Positions 5,002 to 54,164 of a stretch of DNA of 61,183 nucleotides are shown in pieces. Source of the DNA: Bacteroidota bacterium. Lineage in GTDB: Bacteria > Bacteroidota > Rhodothermia > JANXDC01. The notes below the pieces were generated by a model. It saw only the letters and a program-made list of their open reading frames with translations. It ran no database searches and was not told the DNA's origin. Numbering within the stretch: the stretch's first letter is position 1; the number at the start of each line of letters is the position of its first letter. A program made the position numbers and the translations under genes. Location: NCBI GenBank assembly GCA_025059945.1, contig JANXDC010000011.1:80673-141855 (forward strand), in the 5' to 3' direction.

Positions 5002-6309
5002 TTAAGCGGGGGCTTCTGCGTCTCCAAAAAGATCATACGCCTCGGCGTCGCGAATGTCAACCCAGTAAAAATGCCCTACGCGCAGGTTGGGGTCGGACAC
5101 GTAGACCTCGTTATCCACCTCAGGCGCGTCGTACTCCGTTCGGCCGACCGCAAAGCGTCCCTCGATGCGGTCGATGAGCACCTTAAGCCGCTTGCCTACG
5201 AGAGCCTGGTTGCGCTCTAGGCTGATCCTCTGTTGCAGGTTCATGACCGCAAGGGCGCGCGCCTCTTTCTCTTCTGGCGCTATGGGGTCGCCCAGCGCGT
5301 AGGCGGCTGTGTTTTCCTCCTGGGAGTACGTGAAGACGCCGAGTCGATCGAAGCGAATCCGCGCCATTCCCTCTAGCAGACGGGCAAAGTCGTCCTCCGT
5401 TTCTGTGGGATAACCCACGATAAGCGTGGTGCGCAGGGCTACGCCGGGCACGCGGTCCCGAATGCTTTGCACAAGCTCCTCGATCTCGGCCCCCGTGATG
5501 CCGCGTCGCATGGAGGCCAGCACGGGATCGGATAGGTGTTGGACGGGGATGTCCAGGTATTTGCAGATATTAGGCCGCTCGGCCATGACGTCGAGCACTT
5601 CATACGGGAACTTGGCCGGATAGGCGTACATGAGCCGGATCCACTGCAGGTCATCGATCTCGGAGAGGCGGCGCAGAAGCGGGGCCAGTTGCCGTCTGCC
5701 GTACAGGTCCAGTCCGTAGTACGTAAGATCCTGGGCGATCAAAATAAGCTCCCGCACGCCCCGCTGCGTCAGTCGCTGGGCCTCGTGGATGATCTCCTCC
5801 ATAGGTCGGGACCGATGCCGACCCCGCATAAGGGGGATGGCGCAAAAAGAACAGGGGTGATTGCAGCCCTCGGAGATCTTGAGGTAGGCGTAGTGGGGAG
5901 GGCTTAGCAGCAGGCGTTCCCCGAGCAGGTTCGCTTTGTAGTCGGCCCCCAGGGCGGCCAGAAGTTCCCGTAATTCCGAGGTGCCGAAAAAGCCGTCCAC
6001 CTCGGGCAGCTCCTGATGCAGCTCCTGCCGGTAGCGCTCCGTTAGGCATCCGGCCACATAGACGCGCTGCACCCGTCCGGCTGCTTTGAGCTCCAGCGCC
6101 TCCAGGATGGCCTGAATGGACTCGGTCTTGGCCGCCTCGATAAAGCCGCAGGTGTTGATGATTAAGACGTCGGCCCGCTCCGGATCAGAGCTGATGCGGT
6201 ATTGGTTTCCGGCCAGCTGGCCGAGCAACACCTCCGAGTCCACAAGGTTTTTGGCGCATCCTAAGCTGACGACGCTCACCGTGGGAGGGCGGAAGCGTTT
6301 CGTGTGCAT
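5002..6309 (-). CDS. rimO: Ribosomal protein S12 methylthiotransferase RimO
   Basis: A radical-SAM enzyme that adds a methylthio group to an aspartate of ribosomal protein S12. 435 residues: the N-terminal UPF0004 domain has cysteines C18, C54 and C88 for one cluster (SLGCAKNLVDSEVLLG, INTCGF, VAGC), the radical-SAM motif CNHPCSFC spans 149-156, and a C-terminal TRAM domain (LKVLIDRIEGRFAVGRTEYDAPEVDN) follows. SLGCAKNLVDSE and the EYDAPEVDN type of ending separate RimO from MiaB, which methylthiolates tRNA. It lies 4 bases after ftsY in the operon. Confidence 0.96.
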   Translation of the reverse strand: MHTKRFRPPTVSVVSLGCAKNLVDSEVLLGQLAGNQYRISSDPERADVLIINTCGFIEAAKTESIQAILEALELKAAGRVQRVYVAGCLTERYRQELHQELPEVDGFFGTSELRELLAALGADYKANLLGERLLLSPPHYAYLKISEGCNHPCSFCAIPLMRGRHRSRPMEEIIHEAQRLTQRGVRELILIAQDLTYYGLDLYGRRQLAPLLRRLSEIDDLQWIRLMYAYPAKFPYEVLDVMAERPNICKYLDIPVQHLSDPVLASMRRGITGAEIEELVQSIRDRVPGVALRTTLIVGYPTETEDDFARLLEGMARIRFDRLGVFTYSQEENTAAYALGDPIAPEEKEARALAVMNLQQRISLERNQALVGKRLKVLIDRIEGRFAVGRTEYDAPEVDNEVYVSDPNLRVGHFYWVDIRDAEAYDLFGDAEAPA

Positions 6310-39886: not shown

Positions 39887-40960
39887 CTACCCCTGGTGCG
39901 GCAACCAGCGGTCTATCGGGTGCTGACTCCGGAAAATCCGATACCAAGCCTGGACTTGCTCTGGGGAGGCCTGTTCGACCAGCGTAGCCCAAGAGCGCTC
40001 TAGGTAAAAGCGCAGCACATAGTGTGCAATCTGCGCCCGGTCCCAGAGTGCAACCCAAGCCCTCCACCAAGATCGACCGTCTGGACAGAACAGGAGCGCG
40101 GTCGTTTGCTCAATTAGGGCCAGGAGTACCTCCTCGATCCGTCGCTCATGGCCTTCGAGCAGGGCTCTCCCGTTTCGAAAGCCCCTCAGGGCGTCGTAGC
40201 CGGACTCCCAGGCGGTGTGGTTGGCCAAGAAGACCCAACGTAGGGCTTCTCGTAGCGCCCGCAACTCCTGCTGCGCGTAGGATATGTCCCGATACAAGAG
40301 ACCTACTTGGAAGCGGAAGAAGCTTTCCAGAGCCTCCCGACGGATCCAACGCTGCAACTCTGTGCTGTCCGTGGGAGGAGGCCGCCACCAGGGGACTTCG
40401 CTCGGGCGGAGTGTCTTCGGTATGGGGGCGGCGGGGGGCCGCTCAGGCGTCCAGGTGAGGGCAGGAAGCGCAAGCTCGGCTAAATCGGCCTCCATCTGGG
40501 CGCTGATGAAATCCCGCTCTGTCTCGTGTAGGTGCGCCTCTAACGCAGGGAGGACGTGGTGGTTGAGGCGCAGGAAATGATGCTCCAAGTAGTCCCGGAA
40601 GGCCGACAGATCGGCAAAATAGGCGCACAGGAAACGGCTCCGGTGGGGTTCCTCTTGGGGTAGGAGCTCCAATTTGCGGTCGAAAACGGCCAGATTGGCC
40701 GTGCTCACCTGTACTTCGTTCTGGAAGTAGGCAAGCTGGCCGCCCGCTCGGGGCCGCGTTCGTTCGGCGTACGGGGGAAGCAGCCAATTAGCTTCTACGT
40801 AGAACCAGCGCACCAGATAGGCGCGGAAGCTCTCGTAGCTCAGGCGCGCCCATTCGGGTTCACCCAAGGCCAGCAGAGCTTGATGTGCGGCTAGTCCATC
40901 CCATAGGCGCTCTTGGTGAACCTCCGTAAGGGCTTTTATCCGGTCGCCGTCCGGTCCCAT
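39887..40960 (-). CDS. Protein of unknown function, hemerythrin-like helical pattern
   Basis: 357 residues, almost entirely helical, without signal or membrane span. I do not recognise a family with confidence. Two segments share a His/Glu spacing like that of hemerythrin-type metal sites: one near residue 50 (RWFYVEANWLLPPYAER) and one near 130 (LEHHFLRLNHHVLPALEAHLHETE). A Pro-rich linker (TPERPPAAPIPKTLRPSEVP) divides it into two halves. It overlaps the GT4 gene by 25 bases and is the last gene of the exopolysaccharide run. A metal-binding or regulatory role is speculative. Confidence 0.75.
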   Translation of the reverse strand: MGPDGDRIKALTEVHQERLWDGLAAHQALLALGEPEWARLSYESFRAYLVRWFYVEANWLLPPYAERTRPRAGGQLAYFQNEVQVSTANLAVFDRKLELLPQEEPHRSRFLCAYFADLSAFRDYLEHHFLRLNHHVLPALEAHLHETERDFISAQMEADLAELALPALTWTPERPPAAPIPKTLRPSEVPWWRPPPTDSTELQRWIRREALESFFRFQVGLLYRDISYAQQELRALREALRWVFLANHTAWESGYDALRGFRNGRALLEGHERRIEEVLLALIEQTTALLFCPDGRSWWRAWVALWDRAQIAHYVLRFYLERSWATLVEQASPEQVQAWYRIFRSQHPIDRWLPHQG

Positions 40961-42159
40961 CTTTGCGACGTCTGTATCGTGACGGCCGTCGATGGGGGAA
41001 ACTCTGCGGAAGAGGGGGGCTCCCAGCGACGGCTCACCTCCCGGTAGAGCAGCATCATTAGCCCAGCGAAGAGCAGCTCATCTTGGGCCTGCACGAGCCT
41101 CAAGTTGTGTTGTCCGTATTGCTCCAGGAGCTCTGGATGACGCAGAAGCTCCAGGAGCGCCTCCGCTAAGGCTTGGGGGTCGTCCACGGGCACGAGGATT
41201 CCGTTGTAGTTCGGATGCAGGATGTCCGGCACCCCGCCTACGGGTGTGGCCACGATGGCCATGCCTGCGGCCATGGCCTCCAGAAGCACCACAGGCAAGC
41301 CCTCGGCGCGGGAGGGCAAAATGAGTACGTGATGAGATCGAAACGCGGCTCGTTTGCGTTCCCCTGTAATCCAACCCAGATCCGCGCACCAATCGGCCAA
41401 CCCCATGTCTCGAATTCTTTGTCTGTACTCATTCGATAAGGCTGCTAGGCTAAATCGAATCGGCGCATTCTGGTTTTTAAGCAGCTTGATCGCGCGCAGC
41501 AGCGCGTCGATGCCCTTGCGGGGCAGCTCATGGCCGCCGACGAACAGGACGCGCAGGGGGGGCACGGGGGGACGCTCTTCAGGCACGGGTGCGAAGGCCC
41601 CCACGGAGATGCACGGAGGGGCAAGCAACACGTGCCGGTACCCTCGACGCTGCAGGTTTTCGTAGTCTCGCTCCAAGAGCACCGCAAAGCGGTCCACGCT
41701 CTCAATGACGCGCCAGACCAAGGGTTTTAGCAGGCGCAGTTCCGCCCGGTAGTAGGCTTCGAAGTCGTAGTGGAAGTGGAAGATGACGGGAAAGCCCTCC
41801 CGTTTGGCCATCCAAGCATAGAGCGCCGACTCCCAGAAGGGGGCAAACGGGGGCGCATGGATGTGCACCACGTCCGGTCTCACCTGCCGAAGCACTCCCG
41901 GGAAGGCCACCAGATGCTGCAGCGTAACCCAGGCTCCCTGTACAAACCGGCCCAGCCCGTCGCTAAAGAGCGCTCGGTAGCTTGGATCCCCTGTTCCGCG
42001 TTTTTTAGGCGGGCGACTGGTGTTGAAGGGCACAAGATCGACCCACTCGGCCAGCGGCCCCTGAGTCATGCGCAGCAGTATAGAGGTGATACCCCCTACG
42101 GTGGGAGGGAAAAGGCCCACTAGGAGCACACGGAGGCGATCGCGCTGGGGTTGTACCAT
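40936..42159 (-). CDS. Family 4 glycosyltransferase (exopolysaccharide)
   Basis: 407 residues of GT4/GT-B fold: LFPPTVGGITSILLR, DVVHIHAPPFAPFWES, HFHYDFEAYYRAEL, VLFVGGHELPRKGIDALL, and the catalytic C-terminal motif EGLPVVLLEAMAAGMAIVATPVGGVPDIL. The enzyme retains the anomeric configuration of the donor sugar. It overlaps the upstream GT4 gene by 40 bases and the downstream unknown gene by 25. The donor and acceptor sugars cannot be predicted. Confidence 0.9.
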   Translation of the reverse strand: MVQPQRDRLRVLLVGLFPPTVGGITSILLRMTQGPLAEWVDLVPFNTSRPPKKRGTGDPSYRALFSDGLGRFVQGAWVTLQHLVAFPGVLRQVRPDVVHIHAPPFAPFWESALYAWMAKREGFPVIFHFHYDFEAYYRAELRLLKPLVWRVIESVDRFAVLLERDYENLQRRGYRHVLLAPPCISVGAFAPVPEERPPVPPLRVLFVGGHELPRKGIDALLRAIKLLKNQNAPIRFSLAALSNEYRQRIRDMGLADWCADLGWITGERKRAAFRSHHVLILPSRAEGLPVVLLEAMAAGMAIVATPVGGVPDILHPNYNGILVPVDDPQALAEALLELLRHPELLEQYGQHNLRLVQAQDELLFAGLMMLLYREVSRRWEPPSSAEFPPSTAVTIQTSQRWDRTATG

Positions 42160-43256
42160 AAGCTTTCGTACAATTTTAAGGTCTCACGGGCGATCTGATC
42201 CCAATTTAAGGGGCCGGATGCGTAGGCCGCTATCGCGGTGCGCATGCGGGCTTGCATGAGGGGGTTCATAAGCAGCTCAGCCAGGGCGCTAGCCAAGGTG
42301 TGCGCATCGGCCGGGGGAACGATAAGGCCGGTTTGTCCATGCTGTACGAGCTCCGGAAGGCCCCCAACGTCCGTGCACACCACGGGCTTGCCAAAGGCGT
42401 AGGCCAGGGCTGCGACGCCACTTTGGGAGGCCTCCAGATACGGAAGGGCCACAACGTCGGCGGCCTCGAAGTAGGCCCCTACCTGTTCCAGGGGAATGTA
42501 CCGGTTATGGATCACATAGTTGTGTCCCTCCGGATCATAGCGTCTGGCGAGGCTTTGGGCGTCCATGCCCGCCCCTGCGATGAGCAGGCGGACGTTGGGT
42601 ATCCGGGTGCGGAGCAAACGGTTAGCTTCTAGGAGCACAGGCAGCCCTTTGTAGCGCATAATGCGACCGAAAAAGAGCACCGTGGGGCCATCATGCGGGG
42701 GGAGTTGAAACGTCCTGTCGTAGGCTCGAAGGTACAGTTCATGGATTCCATGGGGACGTACGTGCACACGATTGGGGTTCAAGCCGTATTTACGGATCGC
42801 CAGGTCTCGCAGGCATTCCGCGTGCACGATCACCAGATCTGAGCGCCGTACTTGGTACCACCGCGCAATGGGAAGGGTTTTGCGGGACTGCCAGTCGCCT
42901 GGATGGTAATCTACGTCGTGCAGTGTGGTCACAACAGGTAAGCGGCCGATCCAGCGTAGCAAAAGCGGCACCCACAGGTCGACGTGCTGGATGTGAAGCA
43001 CATCGGGCCGCTGCTTGAGGATCCAGCGGGCTAGATGCCGCATAAAGAAAAAATTGCGCGGACTACGGAAACGGGGCCAGTTGGCCATCACATGCAACCC
43101 AACCTCAGGCGCCACCCAGCGCGCAAGCCCTCCGAATTTGTTTTCGGGGACAGCCAAGATAACTTCGAGGTCGAGTCGGGCCAGGGCGTTCGACAGGGAT
43201 ATGGTATAGTCAAACGTTCCGGTCGCGAGCAAGAGCACACGGCGCACAGGACTCAT
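42120..43256 (-). CDS. Family 4 glycosyltransferase (exopolysaccharide)
   Basis: 378 residues from the ATG at 43256 that overlaps the flippase stop as ATGA. GT-B fold: LEVILAVPENKFGGLARWV, DVLHIQHVDLWVPLLLRW, TLHDVDYHPGD, VLFFGRIMRYKGLPVLLEANRLL, LPYLEASQSGVAALAYAFGKPVVCTDVGGLPELVQHGQTG. The last segment is the nucleotide-sugar binding region with the E-x7-E-type motif partly altered (LEASQSGVAALAYA). It works in assembly of the repeat unit on the cytoplasmic face of the membrane. Confidence 0.9.
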   Translation of the reverse strand: MSPVRRVLLLATGTFDYTISLSNALARLDLEVILAVPENKFGGLARWVAPEVGLHVMANWPRFRSPRNFFFMRHLARWILKQRPDVLHIQHVDLWVPLLLRWIGRLPVVTTLHDVDYHPGDWQSRKTLPIARWYQVRRSDLVIVHAECLRDLAIRKYGLNPNRVHVRPHGIHELYLRAYDRTFQLPPHDGPTVLFFGRIMRYKGLPVLLEANRLLRTRIPNVRLLIAGAGMDAQSLARRYDPEGHNYVIHNRYIPLEQVGAYFEAADVVALPYLEASQSGVAALAYAFGKPVVCTDVGGLPELVQHGQTGLIVPPADAHTLASALAELLMNPLMQARMRTAIAAYASGPLNWDQIARETLKLYESLWYNPSAIASVCS

Positions 43257-44674
43257 GGAGACGGCCACCGGATGTAGCGTCCTAAGGTGAGCAATAGCGA
43301 CCACAACAAAAGCGACATCCCGTAACTCATCATCCCCACCATGGCAAGCCAGCTAATGGAAACAAAACCTTTCCAGAGGGCTGTCCACAAGTTGAGCGCT
43401 AGCACCCCATTAGCCACCACAATGGGGATGGGTAGGAGGTATCGGATTTTCCAGTTAAACAGATGTCGCCTAAGAAAGCCATACTCAACAAAGAAGAAGA
43501 ACGTAATGCCGATAAATACGGAAACTGCTGCCCCCGTAGGACCGTATAGGGGTGTGAGAGTTATGCCCAATGCCGTCAATAGACCCAAAGATAACAGATT
43601 GGAGATCATGTCCAGTTTCTCCAGTCCTGCGGCCACTAGCGCATTGGCTTGTATAAGGTTCCAGCTATTAAAAAAGAGTACTCCCAGCCATAATCTGAGC
43701 AGGGGAATGGTGTCGGAGAATTTAGGTCCATATAGTGTTAAGACGATAATTTCAGCTCCCAATATCCCCGTAATGACAATGGGGAGTAGAAGGAATACCA
43801 ACATGCGAGTGGTTTTGTGACATAACGAAATGAACTCCGATAGTTGATCGGGATATAATTTGCTCAGGGCGGGCTGAAGCGAGGTAGTATAGCTTAGCGC
43901 AATAAGAATCAAAGCGTCAAAAAAGCGCTGTGCGGCGTAGAAGTGTCCGGCTTGTGTAGGGGAGGCGAAAACCCCCAGCAACAAAATAGGTAGCTGCCAA
44001 AACAGAATAGAAGCCGTAGAGATCGCGGCGAATACCCAGTAGGTGCGGGCGATCTGAAGCAGCAGCGGGCGCTCTAGGGGTCTCCAGGTGATGCCAAATT
44101 GCCGATAAAGCCCGTATAGCAACAGCGCCGTGCTCGCTATACGCGCCAGGATCACCGTCATCACGGCTTCTTCTAGGGGCTGGCGGCTTGCGATCGCCCA
44201 TCCCACGCCGATTAACTTTAGCGCCGCGTCGAGCAAGGAGCCCAGCGCGGGCACAAGCTGTCGCTCGTGGGCCGTAAAGACCCCCTCCGCGATATGAGCC
44301 GTGACTCCAGCGCCGACCCATAGGAGCAGCAAGGGAAGCCCATTGCGCAGGTGCAGAATGCCTAGTGCTATGGCCCCCAAGGCGAGTATAACGGCTAGAA
44401 TCAAGGACAGGAATAGGCCAAGAGCCAGGCTGTGCGTTAAGTAGGCGCCGGTCTGCTCGGGTTTGCGCGCCACGTCTCGGGAGATAAGGGGCTTAAGTCC
44501 CGAGCCCGCCCCCGTGAAGGCGATAAGGTAGAGGGCCCAAAACAGGCCGAACGTCCCCAGCCCCTCCGCCCCGTAGAAGCGGCCCAAAAGAACGGCCACG
44601 GCGAATCCCGAGGCCACCCGAATGCCGCCGGCCAGGAGGAGCAGAAACGCGTTCTGATGTAGTCTCCACATCAT
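43253..44674 (-). CDS. Polysaccharide repeat-unit flippase, Wzx-like (MATE/MOP family)
   Basis: 473 residues, about 12-14 membrane spans, starting MMWRLHQNAFLLLLAGGIRVASGFAVAVLLGRFYGAEGLGTFGLF, the normal N-terminus of Wzx-like proteins. The ATG at 44674 gives an ATGA overlap with the upstream gene; an ATG at 44686 is an alternative. The flippase moves lipid-linked repeat units to the periplasmic face. The stretch from about 43380 to 43920 is visibly richer in A and T than its neighbours, as is common for horizontally acquired flippases. Confidence 0.9.
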   Translation of the reverse strand: MMWRLHQNAFLLLLAGGIRVASGFAVAVLLGRFYGAEGLGTFGLFWALYLIAFTGAGSGLKPLISRDVARKPEQTGAYLTHSLALGLFLSLILAVILALGAIALGILHLRNGLPLLLLWVGAGVTAHIAEGVFTAHERQLVPALGSLLDAALKLIGVGWAIASRQPLEEAVMTVILARIASTALLLYGLYRQFGITWRPLERPLLLQIARTYWVFAAISTASILFWQLPILLLGVFASPTQAGHFYAAQRFFDALILIALSYTTSLQPALSKLYPDQLSEFISLCHKTTRMLVFLLLPIVITGILGAEIIVLTLYGPKFSDTIPLLRLWLGVLFFNSWNLIQANALVAAGLEKLDMISNLLSLGLLTALGITLTPLYGPTGAAVSVFIGITFFFFVEYGFLRRHLFNWKIRYLLPIPIVVANGVLALNLWTALWKGFVSISWLAMVGMMSYGMSLLLWSLLLTLGRYIRWPSP

Positions 44675-46161
44675 TGAGCTTCCCATTTCAGCCGGCGCAA
44701 GGCCAACAACACCCCCAAAGCGAACCAAAGGTATACCATGTAGGGCACACCCAGAGTGCCGGGCTCTTTAACGCCTACGATTAGGTTGGCCACCACGCCG
44801 CTGAGCAAGCCCAGTGCCAAGGCGGCAAATTTAGGTTCCGGCTCGAGGGCGACCTGCAGCCCGATCAGGATGGCGTAAAAGATGAGACTCAACCATAGAA
44901 AGAGACCCGGAATCCCGATCTCTGAGGCTAGGTGCAAATAGACGTTATGCACCGGGTAGCGAAATCGCCGGGTCACGCGCTCCGAGGTGTCATCGTAGCT
45001 GTCCATGAGGTAGATGTAATTGCCTAGCCCGATGCCCAGCCAAGGATGATCCCGGATGATGTTCTGCGAGATCTGAATAAGGGGTATGCGGGTCTGGGCC
45101 GCCCCCAGATCGTCGCCCGTAATGCGGCCATAGATATAATTCCAGGCGGGGATCACCAGAAACAGCGAGGCGATCAGCAAGGGGACGAAGCGCCGAAGTA
45201 GGTTAAGTGGGTACCTGGGCTGCGCAAGTCCCCGCAGCCCCAACAGGAACAAAAAGGCGATCAGGCCCACCAGTAGCGCCAGCCAGGCGCCACGCGAGAA
45301 CGTGGCGATTAGAGCGCCCATAGCTAGACTAAGCGTTAGGTACTGCACGGGTCTCTCCCAACGCCGCTCCCGGTACGGCCAAGCCAGGATCAGGGGTATA
45401 AAGGTGACAAGATACCAGGAGTAGTTATTCGGAGAGCTCAGCAGGCCGACCACGCGCGCGATGCGCGGATCCGTGGGCAGCGGAGAAAGCAGCCAGGGCG
45501 GCACGCCCCCCAGTTGCGGAATCAAGAGCAGCCGGGGGACGAAAAACTGCAAGACCCCGAAGGCGCTCATCAGCAGCATCCAGATCATGAGCGCCCGCAG
45601 CAGGAACTTGAGGTGCGCGACGTCTTCAAGACCTGCGATGAGGTAAAAGAACATGAGCATTTGCAGGAAAAACCCAAAGAGGGCGTAAAAACTGTACTGG
45701 GGCTGCGGGGCCACTGTGGCGCTCGCCAGGCCTATAAGCATGAGCGAAACGACCAAAAGAAGCGGAAACAGCACTTGAGTGAGCGGAAACGGGCCTCGCC
45801 CCCGGCGCAGCCCGTATGTCACCCACAACAGGATCGCGGTGAAACCCGTAAGCGTTAGGGGTAGTCCTGGCGGGCTGCCCACGTGACCGGGCTGGAATTG
45901 GGGGTGAATATCGATCTCTGCTGAAACGCTCAAGGCCAAAAGCGCCAGCAGCGCCCGATCCAGATACTGCGAAGCCACTAACAGTCCGCTCAGCACGAGC
46001 GGCAAGACGGCCGCAACTACAAGCCATCGCGGGTGCACCGGCAGAGCCGGCAGGGCCGTGACAAGGAGCCCTACCAGAAGGGCAAGCAGCCCCACCGCAA
46101 ACAGAAGGGCCATTCCGCCAGGGGGGCCACCTGCGAGGCTGCGTTCACGCGGGCCGTTCAT
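44671..46161 (-). CDS. O-antigen ligase/polymerase family protein (Wzy/WaaL-like)
   Basis: 496 residues, about 11-12 membrane spans. The conserved Wzy_C region is seen in LLVGLIAFLFLLGL, TRIPLIQISQNIIRDHPWLGIGLGNYIYLMDSYDD and RYPVHNVYLHLASEIGIPGLFLWL; the His in HNVYLHLASEIGIPG is characteristic. It either polymerises repeat units or joins sugar chains. The start at 46161 follows AGGAG at a proper distance, giving a 17-base overlap with the previous gene; the longer frame from 46182 is less likely. Confidence 0.88.
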   Translation of the reverse strand: MNGPRERSLAGGPPGGMALLFAVGLLALLVGLLVTALPALPVHPRWLVVAAVLPLVLSGLLVASQYLDRALLALLALSVSAEIDIHPQFQPGHVGSPPGLPLTLTGFTAILLWVTYGLRRGRGPFPLTQVLFPLLLVVSLMLIGLASATVAPQPQYSFYALFGFFLQMLMFFYLIAGLEDVAHLKFLLRALMIWMLLMSAFGVLQFFVPRLLLIPQLGGVPPWLLSPLPTDPRIARVVGLLSSPNNYSWYLVTFIPLILAWPYRERRWERPVQYLTLSLAMGALIATFSRGAWLALLVGLIAFLFLLGLRGLAQPRYPLNLLRRFVPLLIASLFLVIPAWNYIYGRITGDDLGAAQTRIPLIQISQNIIRDHPWLGIGLGNYIYLMDSYDDTSERVTRRFRYPVHNVYLHLASEIGIPGLFLWLSLIFYAILIGLQVALEPEPKFAALALGLLSGVVANLIVGVKEPGTLGVPYMVYLWFALGVLLALRRLKWEAQ

Positions 46162-46978
46162 AGGGGGCTTCTCCTTTCGCAAACCGCGCGCCCAGCGCGT
46201 CCCGCAGCACGAGTGGAATAAAAAGCGGGGCCTCTAGCAGATAGCGTCGGGACAAGCGTCGCGGCTCTTGTACAAGGCGGGCAAGCCATTCGAGGCCGGC
46301 TCGCTGCATCCAGCGAGGAGCGCGGCGCCACCGGCCCGCCTCGGCATCTAAGGCGGCCCCTATGCCGATGGCGATGAGATTCGGCAGGCGCTCCAGGTTT
46401 TCTGCGATCCAGAGGTCTTGTTTGGGGGCGCCTAGGCTCACCCACAGCACCTCGGGCTGTGCCTGCGCAATACGTTCCATGATGAGCGCGTTGTCCGCTT
46501 CGCGCAAGCGGGGGCGAAACGGGGGGCTGTAGTAGCCCACAAGCCGTAAGCCGGGGTAGCGGCGGGGTAGCAGCTGGACGAGTTTCCGAAGCACCTCGGG
46601 ATGAGAGCCGAGCAAAAACATCCGGAAGCCCTCTTGAGCCGCCCGCGCGCAGAAAGCCGGAAACAGGTCCAGCCCCGTTACGCGCTCCGGAAGGGGTGGG
46701 CCGTAGAGGCGGCTTGCCCACACCACGGGCATGCCATCCGGCAGAACCAGATCGGCCGTGTTGTAAACGGTCCGCAACCGCGGATCTCGGTAAGCGGCCA
46801 GGATGCTGTTAGTGGGGACCACACAGATGCGACGCCGCTCCCGACGGCGGATCCAGGCGCTCATAAGCTCCAGCGTCTGCTGAAGCGTTATGCGCGAGAT
46901 CCCCACACCCAGGATCGATACGCGCGCGATGGCCTCAGGGCCATGAAAAGCCTCTACGTAGTCTTGGGCAGTTGCCAT
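46145..46978 (-). CDS. WecG/TagA/CpsF-family glycosyltransferase (GT26)
   Basis: 277 residues with the family core: ILGVGISRITLQQTLELM, CVVPTNSILAAYRDPRLRTVYNTADLVLPDGMPVVWASR, RVTGLDLFPAFCARA, FLLGSHPEVLRKLV, LWVSLGAPKQDLWI. Members add N-acetylmannosamine(uronate) or a related sugar onto a lipid-linked first sugar. It overlaps the GT39-like gene by 25 bases. The sugar cannot be fixed from sequence. Confidence 0.92.
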   Translation of the reverse strand: MATAQDYVEAFHGPEAIARVSILGVGISRITLQQTLELMSAWIRRRERRRICVVPTNSILAAYRDPRLRTVYNTADLVLPDGMPVVWASRLYGPPLPERVTGLDLFPAFCARAAQEGFRMFLLGSHPEVLRKLVQLLPRRYPGLRLVGYYSPPFRPRLREADNALIMERIAQAQPEVLWVSLGAPKQDLWIAENLERLPNLIAIGIGAALDAEAGRWRRAPRWMQRAGLEWLARLVQEPRRLSRRYLLEAPLFIPLVLRDALGARFAKGEAPYERPA

Positions 46979-48930
46979 AACTCCAGCACAAATCGAGGAT
47001 AGCCAGGTAGCCCGTAGACGTATAAGGGGAAGCTCCGCAGTAGTCGGCTACCTTTGGGCAGAAATACCAAATATTGGCCAACTTCGGGCGCGATGATAGC
47101 GGGCTCCACTTGATTCCAGTCCGGTTGCCGGCCGTATGGCACCACCGTGGGGGCGCGTCCGGCTAGGGTCGGATCCCGCCGGTTCACGGGGGGCCAGGAG
47201 CGAATCTGCGACCAGCGGGGTACCGAAAAATCCCTATCGTAACGCAGTACGAGCGCATATCCCCGATGAAAGATCGCGGGGGCGTAGTTATACCGGATCG
47301 AGGGCCGGATAACGGGGGCCCGGGTTTCGGCTAGCGGCAAGTTGTAGTGGGCCACCACGGGCTGGTCACCCACGAGCGCACGAATTTGTCGGCCGGCATC
47401 CCGAAACGCGTACGAAGGCGGTAGCCAACTGCTCAGGTAAGGCAGCTCCACAAGCACCAGAAGCAAAAGCGCGGCCGCGCCCATGCGCAGGCGCTCCAGG
47501 CCGCGTTCGAATCGGGCCTCTTGACGCCGCAGCGCCCAGGCCAAGCCCAGGCCCAGGCCGCCTACGAGGGCCGAGGCGATCCATGAGGGTCCGTGTGCAA
47601 AGCGCACCGCGTAAACCGCAAGGGGCATCCCCACTAAGACGAGCGCGCTCAGACGGGCCCATTGCCAATCGGGCAGATCCGGTTCTCGAGAGCGGATAAA
47701 ACTCATCCAGCCCGCGTGCGCCAGATAGCCCGCAAAGCTAAGCATCGAGATCCCGATTACGTTTAAACCGTGCTCCTGTCCCACGTGAATCGGCAACCGT
47801 TCACCGATCGCCAGCCCCACGCCGTGCAACGCGCTCCACGGCAGCCACAGAGCTCCGAGCCAACGCAGAAGACGGCCCCAAGGGGATGCGGCTTGCGGCG
47901 ACGGCTCTGGCCACCTCCAGCGCCATCCGGCCAGCCACAGAGCGGCCAGATACGCCAGGGCCGGAAAAACAGGTAGAAACCGCCGCTCAGGCTGATACGA
48001 AGAGGTGGCCAGCAGAACGATGTTGCCCGCTAGCAGAATAAGGGCTAACGCGTCTGGCTCATCCAGCTGCGCTAAGGTGCTGCGGAAGCGCTCCAGAAGC
48101 CGCCGCAATAGGGGCACCAGGTGCCACAGCGCAACGAAGGCCACAGCCGGGATGAGCCCAATAAAGGAATTGATCCAGAGGTTCAGCCAGAAATAGGGCC
48201 GAATGTAGATCGGGGCGCTTGAGCGGTTCTTGGCGATCCAGCCGCTGTAGTCCGGATGGACCAGGAAGGCCACATACGGGATCGCGACTAGGGCCCCGCC
48301 TGCGACGAAGCGCAAGACCGAGCCCCAGGACCAACGGCCGCGATAGGCCTCCCAGGCCAAAAGCAGCGCGTAGATGGGGAAGAAATAGAAGGCGGAGGTC
48401 TTAATAAGAGCCGTTATACCAAGAAAAAAACCGGAAAGGAAGAACCAGCGGTACCTCCAGGCCAGCAGGCTCAGCAAGAGGCTCAAGACCAGCGTGGATT
48501 CTACGAAGCCCACGCGGCTGTAAAGCAAGGGGCCGGCCGAGATGGCGTACAGGGCCACGGTGTACAAGGCGACCTCGGGCCGTTTGCGATCGTAGAAGAG
48601 CGCGTACACAACCGGCAGGGTGAGCGTTCCGGACAGCGCCGAAAGCAGGCGCATGGTCTCGATGCTCACGCCAAGCCAGCAGAAGATAAAGCCTTGCAAG
48701 ACCGTAAAGAGCCAGGCGCTGACCCAGGCCTGATAGAAGCCGTCAACGTGCCAGCGGCCGAATAGGGCGTAATTGCGCCCCTGATGGGCCCACCAGAGCT
48801 CATCCGTGATAAAGCCGCGGTCTAGCAGCCAGGGCGGATCGGCATCCAAAAACACCCATCGGAGCGCCACGCCACCGGCTATGAGCGCCCCAAGGCCAAG
48901 GCCCAATCCCAATCCCATGCGGCTTCGCAT
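46954..48930 (-). CDS. Large membrane glycosyltransferase (GT39/ArnT-like)
   Basis: 658 residues with about 12 membrane helices. The N-terminal periplasmic loop contains the acidic pair pattern of the family (FLDADPPWLLDRGFITDELWWAHQGRNYALFG) and the loop then continues as in PMT/ArnT proteins. Such enzymes transfer a sugar from a lipid-linked donor on the periplasmic side. The C-terminal quarter is a soluble domain (VVAHYNLPLAETRAPVIRPS). The start overlaps the stop of the next upstream gene by one base (TGATG). Confidence 0.85.
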   Translation of the reverse strand: MRSRMGLGLGLGLGALIAGGVALRWVFLDADPPWLLDRGFITDELWWAHQGRNYALFGRWHVDGFYQAWVSAWLFTVLQGFIFCWLGVSIETMRLLSALSGTLTLPVVYALFYDRKRPEVALYTVALYAISAGPLLYSRVGFVESTLVLSLLLSLLAWRYRWFFLSGFFLGITALIKTSAFYFFPIYALLLAWEAYRGRWSWGSVLRFVAGGALVAIPYVAFLVHPDYSGWIAKNRSSAPIYIRPYFWLNLWINSFIGLIPAVAFVALWHLVPLLRRLLERFRSTLAQLDEPDALALILLAGNIVLLATSSYQPERRFLPVFPALAYLAALWLAGWRWRWPEPSPQAASPWGRLLRWLGALWLPWSALHGVGLAIGERLPIHVGQEHGLNVIGISMLSFAGYLAHAGWMSFIRSREPDLPDWQWARLSALVLVGMPLAVYAVRFAHGPSWIASALVGGLGLGLAWALRRQEARFERGLERLRMGAAALLLLVLVELPYLSSWLPPSYAFRDAGRQIRALVGDQPVVAHYNLPLAETRAPVIRPSIRYNYAPAIFHRGYALVLRYDRDFSVPRWSQIRSWPPVNRRDPTLAGRAPTVVPYGRQPDWNQVEPAIIAPEVGQYLVFLPKGSRLLRSFPLYVYGLPGYPRFVLELWQLPKTT

Positions 48931-50354
48931 CAGTAGGCCCCCTTTCCCAGGAGCACCACCGGTATGGTTTTGAGCAGGATCCGTAAGTCCAGCGCCAAGG
49001 ACCAGTTATCGACGTAGGCCAGGTCAAGCCGAATCCACTCTTCGAAGCGTAGGTCGCTGCGCCCGGAGATCTGCCACAGGCATGTGAGGCCGGGTTTGAC
49101 GGCGAACCGGCGCTTGTAACGCGGGTCCGTAAACCGCTGATAGTCCCGCAAAGGCAAAGGGCGTGGGCCCACCAAACTCATGTCGCCCAATAGGACGTTG
49201 ATGAGCTGGGGTAGTTCATCTAGGCTATGCTTGCGCAAAAAGCGGCCGATCGGGGTGATGCGCGGATCGTTTCGGATCTTAAACACCGGCCCGTCGGCCT
49301 CGTTGAGCTCCTCTAGCTCTTGTTGCAGTTGTTCGGCGTTGGGGACCATGGTCCGGAACTTGTACATCCGGAAGATCCGCTTGTGATAGCCTACCCGATC
49401 CTGCACATACAGGGCTGGCGCACCCGGAGAGGTAAGCCGGATCAGAAGCGCGATCAGCAGCATCAGGGGAAGCAACAGGATCAGGCCCACAAAGGCCCCG
49501 AGCAGGTCGATGCCGCGCTTCAGCGCGGCCTGCCAACCCCGGATCGGCTCCGCGATCAGGGTAAAATCCTCCTCCGTCTGCAAAAGCCGAGAGGGGATGC
49601 GCAAAGGGATCCCGTATTGGTGACATAGGCGCGTAAGCCGCTCGATCGCCTCGTAATGTTCGAGCGAAAAGCCCACGAGCACCTCGTCGATGACGAGGGT
49701 ATCGAGCAGACGAGGCAGATCGGAGAACGCGCCCACAACGGGAGCCACAGGCGCGGACCGGACCGCAGCGGCTTGCGTTGCCGTCTTTACGGTGGCGGAG
49801 CCCACCAGCAGCTCCTCCTCTTGAAGGGGCTCCTCAAACGGCATGCGCACCAGACCCAGTAGCTCCAGGCCCCACTCGCCGTGCTTGCGAATGCTTTGCG
49901 CCATCCATTGCGCAGGCGGGCCCGTTCCCACGATCAAGACGCGCCAGCGGCGGCGTGTTCGACCGTAGTAGTATTGCAAAAGCAAGCGCAGCAAGGCGCG
50001 TTCGCCGATGCTGCCCAGCAGCAGCAGCGATCCGAAAAAGATCCACCGGGGCAAGTAGAAGTCCCATAAGGGCGCTAGAAGGGCCAGCAGGCCGCTAAAA
50101 GAGAGCAAGGAGACGACAGCCCCGATCAGCCGGACCCATTCTCGCTTAAGGGGGCCCTCGGAGAAGGGGCTGCGGTAGCTGTCCCACCATCGCAGGAACA
50201 CACCCCAGCCCGCAAGCAAAAGCAGGAGGAAGATGAGCTCTGAGGGGTCATCAAGGGGCTCACCGAAAAGGTTTCCGCTCACCCACCAGGCGACGAGGGC
50301 GACACAAAGATCACACAGGACCGTCAGGCCGTAAATCGGGCGCCTAGGGTGCAT
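48930..50354 (-). CDS. Polyprenyl glycosylphosphotransferase (initiating enzyme)
   Basis: 474 residues: four to five N-terminal membrane helices, a cytoplasmic nucleotide-binding-like domain (VLIVGTGPPAQWMAQSIRKHGEWGLELLG), then the bacterial sugar transferase domain: LKRGIDLLGAFVGLILLLPLM, YVQDRVGYHKRIFRMYKFRTMVPNAEQ, NDPRITPIGRFLRKHSLDELPQLINVLLGDMSLVGPRPLP and VKPGLTCLWQISGRS. It attaches the first sugar phosphate to undecaprenyl phosphate, starting the repeat unit. The sugar (glucose or galactose) is not fixed by sequence. Confidence 0.95.
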   Translation of the reverse strand: MHPRRPIYGLTVLCDLCVALVAWWVSGNLFGEPLDDPSELIFLLLLLAGWGVFLRWWDSYRSPFSEGPLKREWVRLIGAVVSLLSFSGLLALLAPLWDFYLPRWIFFGSLLLLGSIGERALLRLLLQYYYGRTRRRWRVLIVGTGPPAQWMAQSIRKHGEWGLELLGLVRMPFEEPLQEEELLVGSATVKTATQAAAVRSAPVAPVVGAFSDLPRLLDTLVIDEVLVGFSLEHYEAIERLTRLCHQYGIPLRIPSRLLQTEEDFTLIAEPIRGWQAALKRGIDLLGAFVGLILLLPLMLLIALLIRLTSPGAPALYVQDRVGYHKRIFRMYKFRTMVPNAEQLQQELEELNEADGPVFKIRNDPRITPIGRFLRKHSLDELPQLINVLLGDMSLVGPRPLPLRDYQRFTDPRYKRRFAVKPGLTCLWQISGRSDLRFEEWIRLDLAYVDNWSLALDLRILLKTIPVVLLGKGAY

Positions 50355-50360
50355 ACAGCA

Positions 50361-51278
50361 TTATGCCGCTCTGCGCGGGACACGGTTTAGCACTACCCCC
50401 ATAAATTCCAGCTTGTTTGCCTGGGCAAACCGCTGTACGGCCAACAGCTCGGAGCGTCGGGTCCTGCCACGCTGGGCTACGCAAAGCATAGCAGGGCGCG
50501 CCGTCTCAAGCCAATGTGTCCCCGTGGGACTGGAGCCCACATCGAGCACCACCCAGCGGAAACGTTGTCGCATTTCGCCCAGAAAGAGCCGCAACCGGTC
50601 CACGGCTTGAGCGTTGAAAAGCGTCTCCTGTAGCCTGTGGCCTGCGGGGAGCACCCAAAGCGGATAAGGACCCAGCCGATGAAAATAGTCGGCGGCAAGC
50701 TCCCCGCCGGCGAGGTAGTCTGTTAGCCCTTTTGCCGTTCGGATTCCGAAGAGCCTGCCCAGCATCGGATCTTCGAAGTGAAAGTCGACAAGCAGAACAG
50801 GGGCGGGATCGACTCGGTCTGCGATGCCTGAGGCTAGCGTCACGGCCAAGCCGGAGGCGATCGTAGTGGCTCCTGCCGATCGGTGGGGGGAGACTACCGC
50901 CAGGGTGTTGCGCAGCTGCAGCTCAGGTCTCAGTAGCAGCCGCTGAGCGATCGCCTCGAAGGACGCCTCGTGTTCGGCAAAGCGGGCCAGGACCGCGTAC
51001 TGGGCAAGCACGATTCCTGGCGCGGCGTTGCTTTGCGTCAAATCCACTCGACACGTGCTTGGGATTGGGGGCGCGACGGGCTCCTTTGGGATCGCGGGGC
51101 GCGGAGCGGTTGTTTTGTCCGCGGCCGCCACCGTGGGGCCTAGCGAGGCGATGCGTTGCGAGATGGCACCTTCAGCTGGTCGTGCGCCGTGTTGGCTATG
51201 GTGGTAGATCCAGCCCAAAAGGGCGCCGATCAGGAAAGCTATCCCGACAAACAACGCCACCAAGATGCCCAAGCTCAT
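50361..51278 (-). CDS. Degenerate BY-kinase/CpsD-like ATPase
   Basis: 305 residues with one N-terminal membrane helix (SLGILVALFVGIAFLIGALLGWIYHH), a Pro/Ala-rich linker and a MinD/CpsD-type domain. The Walker A position reads SPHRSAGATTIASGLA, in which the expected GK(S/T) lysine is replaced by Ala. Walker A' is LLVDFHFEDPMLGRLFG and the Walker B position is WVVLDVGSSP. No tyrosine cluster is present at the C-terminus. Full BY-kinases autophosphorylate and control Wzz; this one looks unable to bind or hydrolyse ATP normally. It follows Wzz, overlapping it by ATGA, the usual place for a partner kinase. Confidence 0.85.
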   Translation of the reverse strand: MSLGILVALFVGIAFLIGALLGWIYHHSQHGARPAEGAISQRIASLGPTVAAADKTTAPRPAIPKEPVAPPIPSTCRVDLTQSNAAPGIVLAQYAVLARFAEHEASFEAIAQRLLLRPELQLRNTLAVVSPHRSAGATTIASGLAVTLASGIADRVDPAPVLLVDFHFEDPMLGRLFGIRTAKGLTDYLAGGELAADYFHRLGPYPLWVLPAGHRLQETLFNAQAVDRLRLFLGEMRQRFRWVVLDVGSSPTGTHWLETARPAMLCVAQRGRTRRSELLAVQRFAQANKLEFMGVVLNRVPRRAA

Positions 51279-52666
51279 CCTGTGGTCTCCCGTATTTCAC
51301 CGATTACCGGAATGCCGGCCCGAGAGACGTCCGCCGGCGATAGGATCATCTCGTCTCGATACGCGCGCGCCAAGGCGACAGCGATACCGCCGCTCAGTCC
51401 GAAGAGAAAAGCCAAGCCCAGGTTGAGGGTCCAGTTGGGACTGGAGGGGATTCCGGGCACATTAGGGGGGCTGATGACGGTGACGATGACCTCTTGCTGC
51501 AGACGCAGCATGGCGATGCGCGCTTCTTCGCGCTGCCGCAGCAGGGCGTTATAAACCTGATCGTTTTCGTCGATCGCCCGCCGCAGTCGTTCGTAGGTGG
51601 TCTCTTGGTCGATCAAGCTCGCAATCTGGGCCCTTAGCCGGTCCAGCTCCACCTGTAGCTGCCTTTCGGCGGCTAAGAGGCTGGCGATACCGACGCGCTC
51701 TTGTTCTATAGACTGGTTGATTTCGCTCACCAGCTGTTGGCGCGTTTCCCGGATTTGCTGTTCAACTTGCCGCATCTCCGGATACTGCGGCGTATAGGTT
51801 TCAGCCAGCTTGGCGCGTTGGATTAGAAGCTCGGCTAGTCGGTTGCGTAGGCTCACCAGCGTGCCCGTTTGGCTTAAGCTGTTGCTTACGTCGGTAGAGG
51901 GGATGCTCGTCAACTGGTTGGTTTGAATGGCTCGCTCCAGCTCACGCAGGCGCGTTTCGCGCTCTATGCGCTGGGAGCGGATTTGCGTTAAGCGTTGCGC
52001 CAAGGTCAGAATCTGATCCGCCAGCAGTCGCCGCTGCACTTCCGGGGATATGAAGCTGCGAGATCGTTGAAATTCCATCTGTTGGGCCTCTAAGTCGCGG
52101 AGCCGCTGTTCAGCCTCCCGCACCCGGGCTTCAAAGAACTGGTATGTTTGCGTTCGGTTGTATAGGCGAGACGGGAATTCCCGATAGGCCTCGATGAGGC
52201 TTTGCAACACGGAAGCGGCGCGTTCTGGGTTGGTGTCCGAGTATTGGAGGCGGATCACACCGGCGTCCCGCAACGGCTCGGTTTTGAGTCGGGACCAAAA
52301 TTGTCGGATGACGCGGTCCAAATGCTCGCGCTCGTTTGCCGCCCCTGTCCGGATAACCCGATCCAAGCCCGTCTTGCGCACCACCTCTTCGGCGATAGGT
52401 CGGCTGCGCATGATCTCGATGTCGGCCATGACGATCTGCTCGATGTTGCGGGGTTGAATCGTTGCACCGAGCAAGGTCGCGATTTCGGTTTGGGGATCGC
52501 GCTCCAGGAGGATGCGGGCCTCAGAGGTGTATAGCTTGGGCAGGAGCGCCGTCACCAGGGCCACGGTGCCGACCACGGCCGCAAGAAAGAACGCGATGAG
52601 ATACCAATACCGCCGGAAAGCGGTCTGCACCGTGTAGCCGAGGGCCTGATAAGGCGTCGTTTCCAT
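51275..52666 (-). CDS. Chain-length determinant protein, Wzz/GumC type
   Basis: 463 residues: N-terminal membrane helix (YWYLIAFFLAAVVGTVALVTALL), Wzz domain (LYTSEARILLERDPQTEIATLLG), a long coiled-coil (about residues 150-390, such as ERETRLRELERAIQT and LAAERQLQVELDRLRAQI), and a C-terminal helix (LNLGLAFLFGLSGGIAVALA). Wzz-type proteins sit in the inner membrane, set the polymer length and contact the outer-membrane exporter. The C-terminus has no kinase domain; the neighbouring gene would take that part. Confidence 0.93.
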   Translation of the reverse strand: METTPYQALGYTVQTAFRRYWYLIAFFLAAVVGTVALVTALLPKLYTSEARILLERDPQTEIATLLGATIQPRNIEQIVMADIEIMRSRPIAEEVVRKTGLDRVIRTGAANEREHLDRVIRQFWSRLKTEPLRDAGVIRLQYSDTNPERAASVLQSLIEAYREFPSRLYNRTQTYQFFEARVREAEQRLRDLEAQQMEFQRSRSFISPEVQRRLLADQILTLAQRLTQIRSQRIERETRLRELERAIQTNQLTSIPSTDVSNSLSQTGTLVSLRNRLAELLIQRAKLAETYTPQYPEMRQVEQQIRETRQQLVSEINQSIEQERVGIASLLAAERQLQVELDRLRAQIASLIDQETTYERLRRAIDENDQVYNALLRQREEARIAMLRLQQEVIVTVISPPNVPGIPSSPNWTLNLGLAFLFGLSGGIAVALARAYRDEMILSPADVSRAGIPVIGEIRETTG

Positions 52667-52671
52667 GGCGT

Positions 52672-53397
52672 TTACCTCGTTGTGACTTGATAGAGGATCA
52701 GGGCTTGGATGGCCGCGTTGATCGGCGGGATCAAGCTGTTGTAAACGCGCGTCATAAAGTTTTCAATGTCGTAGATGACCGTTGTGGGCACGTAGATGAT
52801 GTCCCCCGCCTCCAGGGGCACGTTTAGTTCTGGCCTACGGCCTACCGAGGCGGCCCGCAGATCCAGCCTATAAGCGCGATATTGTCCGTTCTGCTGGCGG
52901 CGCAGCAACATTACGCTCTGGCGCTTGGCCGAGGGGCGGAAGCTACCGGCCATGGCGATCGCCTTAAGTACGGTCATATTCGGTTGCATGATCTGCAAAC
53001 CGGGCTCGTTGACCTCGCCCACCACAAAAACGGCCTGATTCGATGCAATGTGCACGATCACCGTTACCTCCGGATTCCGGAGAATAACGCTGTAGGCCTC
53101 CTCCACCCGGCGTTTGAGGTCGTTCGGGGTTAACCCAGCGGCCACCACGTCTCCCAGGTAGGGAAGCGATATGCGTCCGTCGGGCCGCACCGTGACGGTC
53201 TGGTTGAATTGGTCGGTCTCTTCAAACTTGAATTCCAACACATCGCCGATGTTGATTCGGTAATCGCCCGGAGACAAGATGGGCAGCTCTTGCTCAGGCT
53301 CGGGCTGGGCTGGCTGGACAAGCCGGCGCACAGGACCACACCCTGTCAGGGAGCCCACTAGAAGCAGAAGCCCAAGCGCCGCGCAGATGGATCTCAT
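52672..53397 (-). CDS. Polysaccharide export lipoprotein, Wza-like
   Basis: 241 residues from the Met at 53397, or six more from 53415. The lipobox is GSLTGC. Polysaccharide export domain (SPGDYRINIGDVLEFKFEE, VRPDGRISLPYLGDVVAAGLTPNDLKRRVEEAYS, PEVTVIVHIASNQAVFVVGEVNEPG) then an SLBB domain (VLKAIAMAGSFRPSAKRQSVMLLRR). It forms the outer-membrane channel for the polymer. First gene of the exopolysaccharide operon; a leader of about 370 bases separates it from tmRNA. SD is weak at both candidate starts. Confidence 0.92.
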   Translation of the reverse strand: MRSICAALGLLLLVGSLTGCGPVRRLVQPAQPEPEQELPILSPGDYRINIGDVLEFKFEETDQFNQTVTVRPDGRISLPYLGDVVAAGLTPNDLKRRVEEAYSVILRNPEVTVIVHIASNQAVFVVGEVNEPGLQIMQPNMTVLKAIAMAGSFRPSAKRQSVMLLRRQQNGQYRAYRLDLRAASVGRRPELNVPLEAGDIIYVPTTVIYDIENFMTRVYNSLIPPINAAIQALILYQVTTR

Positions 53398-53524
53398 AAT
53401 GATACAGCCCTTCATCTTCTAGCTCTTATGGGGCCATCTTGATTCGCCAGATCGCTCAATCAAATCATGTGCCCTGATCGCAAAGTTCCCCGGCCTTTGG
53501 GCTTATAGGGGGAGCGCATCACAA

Positions 53525-53562
53525 AGATGCGGACAAAAAGGCAGAGATGCGGATAAAAAAGC
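53525..53562. repeat. Tandem 18-base repeat upstream of the Wza-like gene
   Basis: AGATGCGGACAAAAAGGC at 53525-53542 is repeated as AGATGCGGATAAAAAAGC at 53545-53562, with two mismatches and a 20-base period, close to two helical turns. The second copy includes the A-run that is the T-tract of the minus-strand hairpin. Possible operator or RNA element; function unknown. Confidence 0.6.
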
Positions 53563-53587
53563 CGGGCCCGGGTTCACCCGGTGCCCG
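53555..53587 (-). terminator. Intrinsic terminator-like hairpin in the exopolysaccharide leader
   Basis: On the minus strand, a 10-bp GC-rich stem with one bulged base (53563-53572 paired with 53577-53587, loop 53573-53576) is followed by six T. This is a strong factor-independent terminator pattern. It is upstream of, and in the same direction as, the Wza-like gene, so it could be an attenuator or end a small RNA that starts after tmRNA. Confidence 0.7.
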
Positions 53588-53772
53588 ACCATCCGCCTAA
53601 TCATGATGGGAGAAGGGTGTGGGGTGCCTGAGCTGATCATAGGACCGTTGCCGCATCGTAGACGTTACAGACAGCGGCAACTCCCGCAACATGTCGGAGG
53701 CGATTGCAAGGGCTAAGGTGTGGAGTACGGCCTTCAAGGTCGCCTCAGATCTCCGTCGCCAGAGCGAATAAT

Positions 53773-53796
53773 AAAAAAGCCGCCTTATGGCGGCTT
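53773..53796 (-). terminator. Terminator of tmRNA
   Basis: Minus-strand hairpin AAGCCGCC-ATAA-GGCGGCTT (stem 53777-53784 with 53789-53796) followed by a run of T (53773-53778 on the plus strand is A). Located 9 bases after the tmRNA 3' end. Confidence 0.85.
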
Positions 53797-53804
53797 ACCA
53801 CTTG

Positions 53805-54164
53805 TGGAGATGGCGGGAGTCGAACCCGCGTCCGAACCGGCCCGCACTCAGACATCTACGGGCGTAGTCGGTTTATCTGTTTTCCTCCTGCGCGTAGCCA
53901 ACCGACAGGCGGCGCAAGAGTAGCCCCCTTAGGTCTTTACCCGTTGACCCCGGGCCAGAGTCTTCGGGCTAGCCTGTCTTGTCGATGCCCGTCGCTCAGG
54001 GGACAGGCGCCCTGAGCACGGACAGATGGCGGGTGTATTAAGCCGCCATCGCGTAGCTGTAAGAGTTCGCACTTCTTTTTCCCGGCGTGTTTTAGCGGGC
54101 TTACGCCGGCAGCCCGACCCGCCGCCTGAGCCCACGCTCGGTCCGTCGAGACCCGTTCATCCCC
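53805..54164 (-). ncRNA. ssrA: Transfer-messenger RNA (tmRNA)
   Basis: About 360 nucleotides. The 5' end reads GGGGATGAACGGGTCTCGAC, which pairs GGGGATG with the 3' CATCTCC to form the acceptor stem (one G-U). The 3' half has the T-arm (CGCGGGTTCGACTCCCG). The gene-encoded end is discriminator A followed by CAA, so CCA must be added by enzyme. The reading frame for the tag is clear: resume codon GCG at 54068-54070 through stop TAA at 54038-54040, giving ANSYSYAMAA. From memory this resembles the tag of Salinibacter (ADDYSYAMAA). tmRNA frees stalled ribosomes and tags the incomplete protein. Confidence 0.96.

Follow-up and report, generated by a model that had tools for sequence, protein, structure and literature searches.

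The 357-nt region between the tmRNA gene and a wza-like gene at the head of an exopolysaccharide (EPS) operon raises the question of whether it acts as an attenuated leader of this operon or releases a small RNA (sRNA), the two functions proposed in an initial annotation. We addressed this question in the window, that is, the whole 61,183-nt stretch of DNA analyzed from a 2.14-Mb Bacteroidota genome, by comparison with the MAG Bacteroidetes bacterium KatS3mg041. The comparison rests on these two genomes, KatS3mg041 being the sole same-genus/family genome compared. A 16S search of the window's genome returned no rRNA, and the organism was placed solely through KatS3mg041. The terminator in the region proved to be real and is kept together with ~70 nt upstream of it, as either function predicts, and no conserved RNA-only antiterminator accompanies it. 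We give roughly even odds (a probability of about 0.5) that the conserved element is an attenuated 5' leader of the EPS operon, which would need protein-assisted read-through.

The locus ahead of the EPS operon

The region is flanked by the following features:

53804-54164, minus strand: tmRNA gene (ssrA) with the tag ANSYSYAMAA, identified by ARAGORN and Rfam RF00023 (186 bits)
53770-53796, minus strand: intrinsic terminator of the tmRNA, AAGCCGCC ATAA GGCGGCTT followed by a T-tract (fold z = -5.0)
52672-53397, minus strand: wza-like gene (Pfam Poly_export, SLBB), with start and Shine-Dalgarno (SD) sequence kept in KatS3mg041
39887-53397, minus strand: EPS operon, ~11 genes and ~13.5 kb, with the same gene order in KatS3mg041

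The window and KatS3mg041 are largely syntenic, and the EPS operon is identical gene for gene. Its genes encode Wza, a Wzz/Wzc-like protein, a protein without Pfam match that is BY-kinase-like by position, and a WcaJ-like protein (Bac_transf); the further genes comprise PMT, WecG, Wzy_C, Wzx, two GT4-type glycosyltransferases and one unassigned open reading frame (ORF). Because KatS3mg041 keeps the SD-like sequence GAAGGG (53413-53408) and the ATG at 53397 but does not keep the upstream ATG, the wza-like gene probably starts at 53397 and not at the first in-frame ATG (53415); the spacing between the SD sequence and ATG 53397 is kept in both genomes. The tmRNA-wza region as a whole folded mildly above chance (z = -1.9).

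Near a second polysaccharide-export locus, both genomes carry a terminator-like hairpin with a T-tract (L127 2160-2193, plus strand; L129 1040-1005, minus strand), and the former sits just before a divergent NIF3-like gene.

A conserved core ending in an intrinsic terminator

Within the region, a 76-nt core (53630-53555, minus strand) is 87% identical to KatS3mg041, against 39-49% identity at 4-fold sites (0.39-0.49), synonymous sites being near saturation between both genomes. Genome-wide BLAST of the leader against KatS3mg041 gave E = 3e-14; the next genomes of the class yielded merely short hairpin-like matches. The core consists, in order, of box 1, a spacer that differs in length between the genomes (8 nt in the window, longer in KatS3mg041), box 2 and the terminator. 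The elements in and around it are:

53631-53669, minus strand: weakly conserved block TGTAAYG ... GGTCYTATGRKCAG in the KatS3mg041 alignment (score reached by 0.5% of shuffles)
53607-53630, minus strand: box 1, CAGGCACCCCACACCCTTCTCCCA, 24 nt, C-rich, 24/24 identical in KatS3mg041, without a stable predicted fold
53589-53598, minus strand: box 2, AGGCGGATGG, 10/10 identical in KatS3mg041, adjoining the terminator
53555-53590, minus strand: intrinsic terminator, a GC hairpin (GGTCGGGCACCGGGTGAACCCGGGCCCGGCT) plus six T, recognized by fold and conservation
53542-53561 and 53522-53541, minus strand: two tandem 20-nt direct repeats, 85% identical to each other, not kept in KatS3mg041

Every feature of the initial annotation was found at its position on the minus strand; box 1, the most conserved part of the region, and the UpxY-family antiterminator described below were missing from it.

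The terminator had been described as a 10-bp hairpin with six T; its hairpin is in fact slightly larger, with 12-13 bp and a single bulged A. Folding of the segment yields -30.2 kcal/mol, compared with -18.3 on average for shuffles (z = -4.0), and at 65 C the hairpin still has about -15 kcal/mol. A stable GC-rich hairpin with the T-tract TTTTTT (53560-53555, minus strand) directly after it, kept in KatS3mg041, identifies an intrinsic (Rho-independent) terminator. Two of its pairs differ in KatS3mg041 by single-sided, pair-preserving changes (U.G to C-G and C-G to U.G); the covariation is weak because just these two pairs changed, each on one side. Both the identity of the core and a terminator above chance speak for an attenuator.

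No upstream gene appears to own this terminator. In the window the tmRNA has its own terminator; in KatS3mg041 the tmRNA lies >3 kb from the element, with unrelated DNA between them, and the closest gene on the upstream side, galE-like, is divergent. Judged from this unrelated upstream DNA and divergent gene, the terminator must end a short transcript that starts just ahead of wza and cannot serve an upstream protein gene. The same arrangement bears on simple insulation, in which the terminator would be a back-up against tmRNA read-through and box 1 a DNA site unrelated to it, serving as operator or promoter. The tmRNA does lie upstream on the same strand in the window, as insulation would have it, but its own terminator is already strong, and KatS3mg041 still keeps the element with the tmRNA far off behind opposite-strand genes; we regard this explanation as improbable.

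The three opposite-strand genes between tmRNA and leader in KatS3mg041 (L006 1960-4756) are, by inspection, SIS-type, GHMP-kinase-type and galE-like, and this sugar-metabolism-like trio is absent from the corresponding place in the window.

Box 1 and the ends of the predicted transcript

Very few exact matches of at least 20 nt occur in the window's intergenic sequence, and box 1 is one of them; the others lie in short ORFs off the gene list and in a second RNA-like element. Neither genome contains further copies of box 1. Box 1, spacer and box 2 together fold no better than shuffles. A box 1/box 2 hairpin returned by RNAalifold was rejected, 94% of shuffled pairs forming an equal or stronger duplex; pairing this weak suggests that box 1 works unpaired.

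The transcript probably has its 5' end close to box 1. The weakly conserved block ahead of it, with TATGAT at 53641-53636, is a candidate promoter at the right distance; consensus scans returned no promoter, nor a -35 match beside TATGAT. On the other side of the terminator, the 83-130 nt leading to wza are 35% identical overall and not conserved as a whole. They include a marginally conserved block, TTTGC.ATC.GGGCA....ATTTGA (score reached by 1.5% of shuffles), which could be a separate wza promoter.

The second element is a conserved short RNA on the minus strand at about 60232-60135, comprising a 5' hairpin (GCTTCCGCATCGG...CCGATGCGGAGC) in which KatS3mg041 differs by several compensatory changes, a linker, and a terminator with a T-tract. 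Its C-rich linker ATCCCGTCATCACCCTCCACCG is invariant between both genomes and resembles the anti-Shine-Dalgarno tail. The RNA converges on a plus-strand gene ending at 60138 and has no match in Rfam. It looks like a stand-alone sRNA, and such RNAs therefore probably exist in the window.

These observations bear on the main rival explanation, a stand-alone ~75-nt trans-acting sRNA with its own promoter and intrinsic terminator, whose single-stranded C-rich seed (CACCCCACACCCUUCUCCC) could pair with Shine-Dalgarno regions, wza having a separate downstream promoter. The architecture fits, as box 1 lacks a stable predicted fold and pairs poorly with box 2. The marginal block after the terminator and the second RNA, which likewise has a C-rich linker and a terminator and no same-strand gene downstream, both count against an attenuator and for this rival. 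The likeness between the two C-rich linkers is nevertheless that of chance, and the place directly before wza is kept in synteny despite the replaced upstream DNA. Among the 42 genes tested for pairing with box 1, the wza start region comes 28th, which speaks against the sRNA; the idea that box 1 sequesters the wza SD was rejected on the same rank. Overall, we hold the sRNA to be rather unlikely. Were it correct, the window would contain two or more conserved C-rich RNAs, the element among them.

Possible leader peptide and RNA switches

The 8-bp stem of the initial annotation (GTTGCCGC/GCGGCAAC, 53681-53674 with 53654-53647) is present in the window and not kept in KatS3mg041. A 31-residue ORF without SD (53692-53597, minus strand; MLRELPLSVTSTMRQRSYDQLRHPTPFSHHD) was likewise recovered; its stop is not conserved, the frame continuing through the terminator in KatS3mg041. 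The reported 18-base repeat does overlap the T-tract and measures 20 nt, but neither copy is kept in KatS3mg041.

Leader-peptide attenuation, in which a ribosome on a frame across box 1 (RHPTPFS) would mask the 5' arm of the terminator, could draw on a frame that stays open across the two boxes in the window and in KatS3mg041, with a frame-preserving length difference. The frame has no SD, however, and neither its start nor its stop is conserved; its eight codons carry zero synonymous changes, against the 4-fold identity given above, and the ATG of the 31-residue ORF lies upstream of the likely transcription start. We assign this explanation a low probability.

GCGGAT (53596-53591) had been proposed to pair with ATCCGC (53554-53549) of the repeats as an alternative fold. 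The two can pair, but their helix encloses the terminator and both occur together in the MFE structure, so that it is not an alternative to the terminator; as the repeat partner is also absent from KatS3mg041, the proposed switch was rejected. Folding of the nascent transcripts gave no antiterminator common to both species, and none mutually exclusive with the terminator is conserved between the two genomes. What survives of the proposed folding in KatS3mg041 is the terminator hairpin, and not the stem, the repeats or an antiterminator. A ligand-sensing riboswitch or other RNA-only switch with a conserved antiterminator is, in our view, very improbable: the leader is conserved and has a terminator, and CACCC in the window could pair with GGGUG of the terminator loop, but this pairing is lost in KatS3mg041, box 1, spacer and box 2 show no folding beyond shuffles, and Rfam was negative even at a relaxed threshold.

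Search for the element in other genomes

Apart from the two genomes compared, the element was missing from the class (245 genomes searched by BLAST and a covariance model), from a 394-genome sample of the phylum and from viral contigs. One extra covariance-model match (L133) was rejected, since it comprised the hairpin alone and lay where an ABC-transporter gene begins. Covariance models of Rfam families (eps leader, riboswitches and sRNAs) did not match the element, the relaxed threshold giving chance matches only, and a search for wza orthologues elsewhere in the class yielded nothing beyond weak matches in one further genome.

A stand-alone UpxY-family protein and a proposed model for read-through

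Besides the housekeeping NusG, each of the two genomes encodes one stand-alone UpxY-family protein, scoring 148 and 151 bits with NF033644 (NCBIfam cut-off, 100 bits) and under the cut-offs for RfaH, LoaP and NusG:

L069 4428-4991, minus strand: stand-alone UpxY-family NusG paralog
L070 about 5448-6008, plus strand: stand-alone UpxY-family NusG paralog

The gene is unlinked to the EPS operon, lying on a different contig among neighbours that do not resemble polysaccharide genes, and so does not head the polysaccharide operon that it would control. UpxY-family homologues (E <= 1e-20) occur in 62 of 240 class genomes, about a quarter, and no terminator or GGCGG motif is common to the leaders that precede upxY homologues in this class.

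In Bacteroides capsule operons, UpxY proteins keep transcription from ending prematurely in the leader (PMC7819879, PMC7315117), and LoaP allows a leader terminator to be read through (PMC12691694). Given these precedents, we favour protein-assisted read-through of the attenuated leader. Transcription would start at or just upstream of about 53630 and pass through a weakly structured C-rich segment and then box 2; by default it would stop at 53555, releasing a ~75-nt RNA, and the ~13.5-kb EPS operon would be expressed only upon read-through of the terminator. As no conserved RNA-only switch was found, we infer that a protein supplies this read-through. The UpxY-family paralog is the best candidate because UpxY proteins relieve premature termination in capsule leaders; that this single paralog performs the step is a tentative proposal, the link being circumstantial. 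According to PMC7593976, how NusG paralogs encoded inside their operons are recruited is unknown, and UpxYs without UpxZ may act like RfaH. That box 1 and box 2 form the signal recruiting the stand-alone paralog, which would act in trans, RfaH-style, and bring RNA polymerase through the terminator into the unlinked EPS operon, seems unlikely to us.

If the attenuator reading is true, exopolysaccharide production in this little-studied lineage of Bacteroidota is controlled by a terminator in the leader, and the conserved segment of ~100 nt is short enough for a direct test as a UpxY-type recruitment site, a recognition signal for which the cited literature gives no definition.

Comparison with known systems

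C-rich small RNAs with intrinsic terminators form a general class. Like them, the element combines a C-rich segment of weak structure with a terminator behind it; it differs in its fixed place ahead of wza.

As with RfaH/ops leaders, the element lies ahead of a polysaccharide operon, and the genome encodes an unlinked NusG paralog with the potential to act in trans. The paralog here, however, scores under the RfaH cut-off, and RfaH is reported to have low efficiency at intrinsic terminators (PMC7819879). Box 2 also resembles the ops element of E. coli no more than expected by chance: it matches at 7 of 12 positions, a score reached by 66% of shuffles, and was rejected as such an element; GGCGGATGGYCGGG showed no enrichment over the reversed control in either genome.

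The LoaP/dfn leader of Bacillus velezensis likewise uses an intrinsic terminator in the leader to gate a long biosynthetic operon (PMC12691694). Recruitment of LoaP depends on an RNA hairpin that precedes the terminator, whereas the present leader has no supported hairpin except the terminator and the paralog of the window's genome falls under the LoaP cut-off.

From the UpxY-controlled capsule leaders of Bacteroides, the locus differs in that upxY is stand-alone and unlinked and that the operon opens with wza. It resembles them in that a leader with a terminator precedes a polysaccharide operon and that the genome, also of Bacteroidota, codes for a UpxY-family antiterminator.
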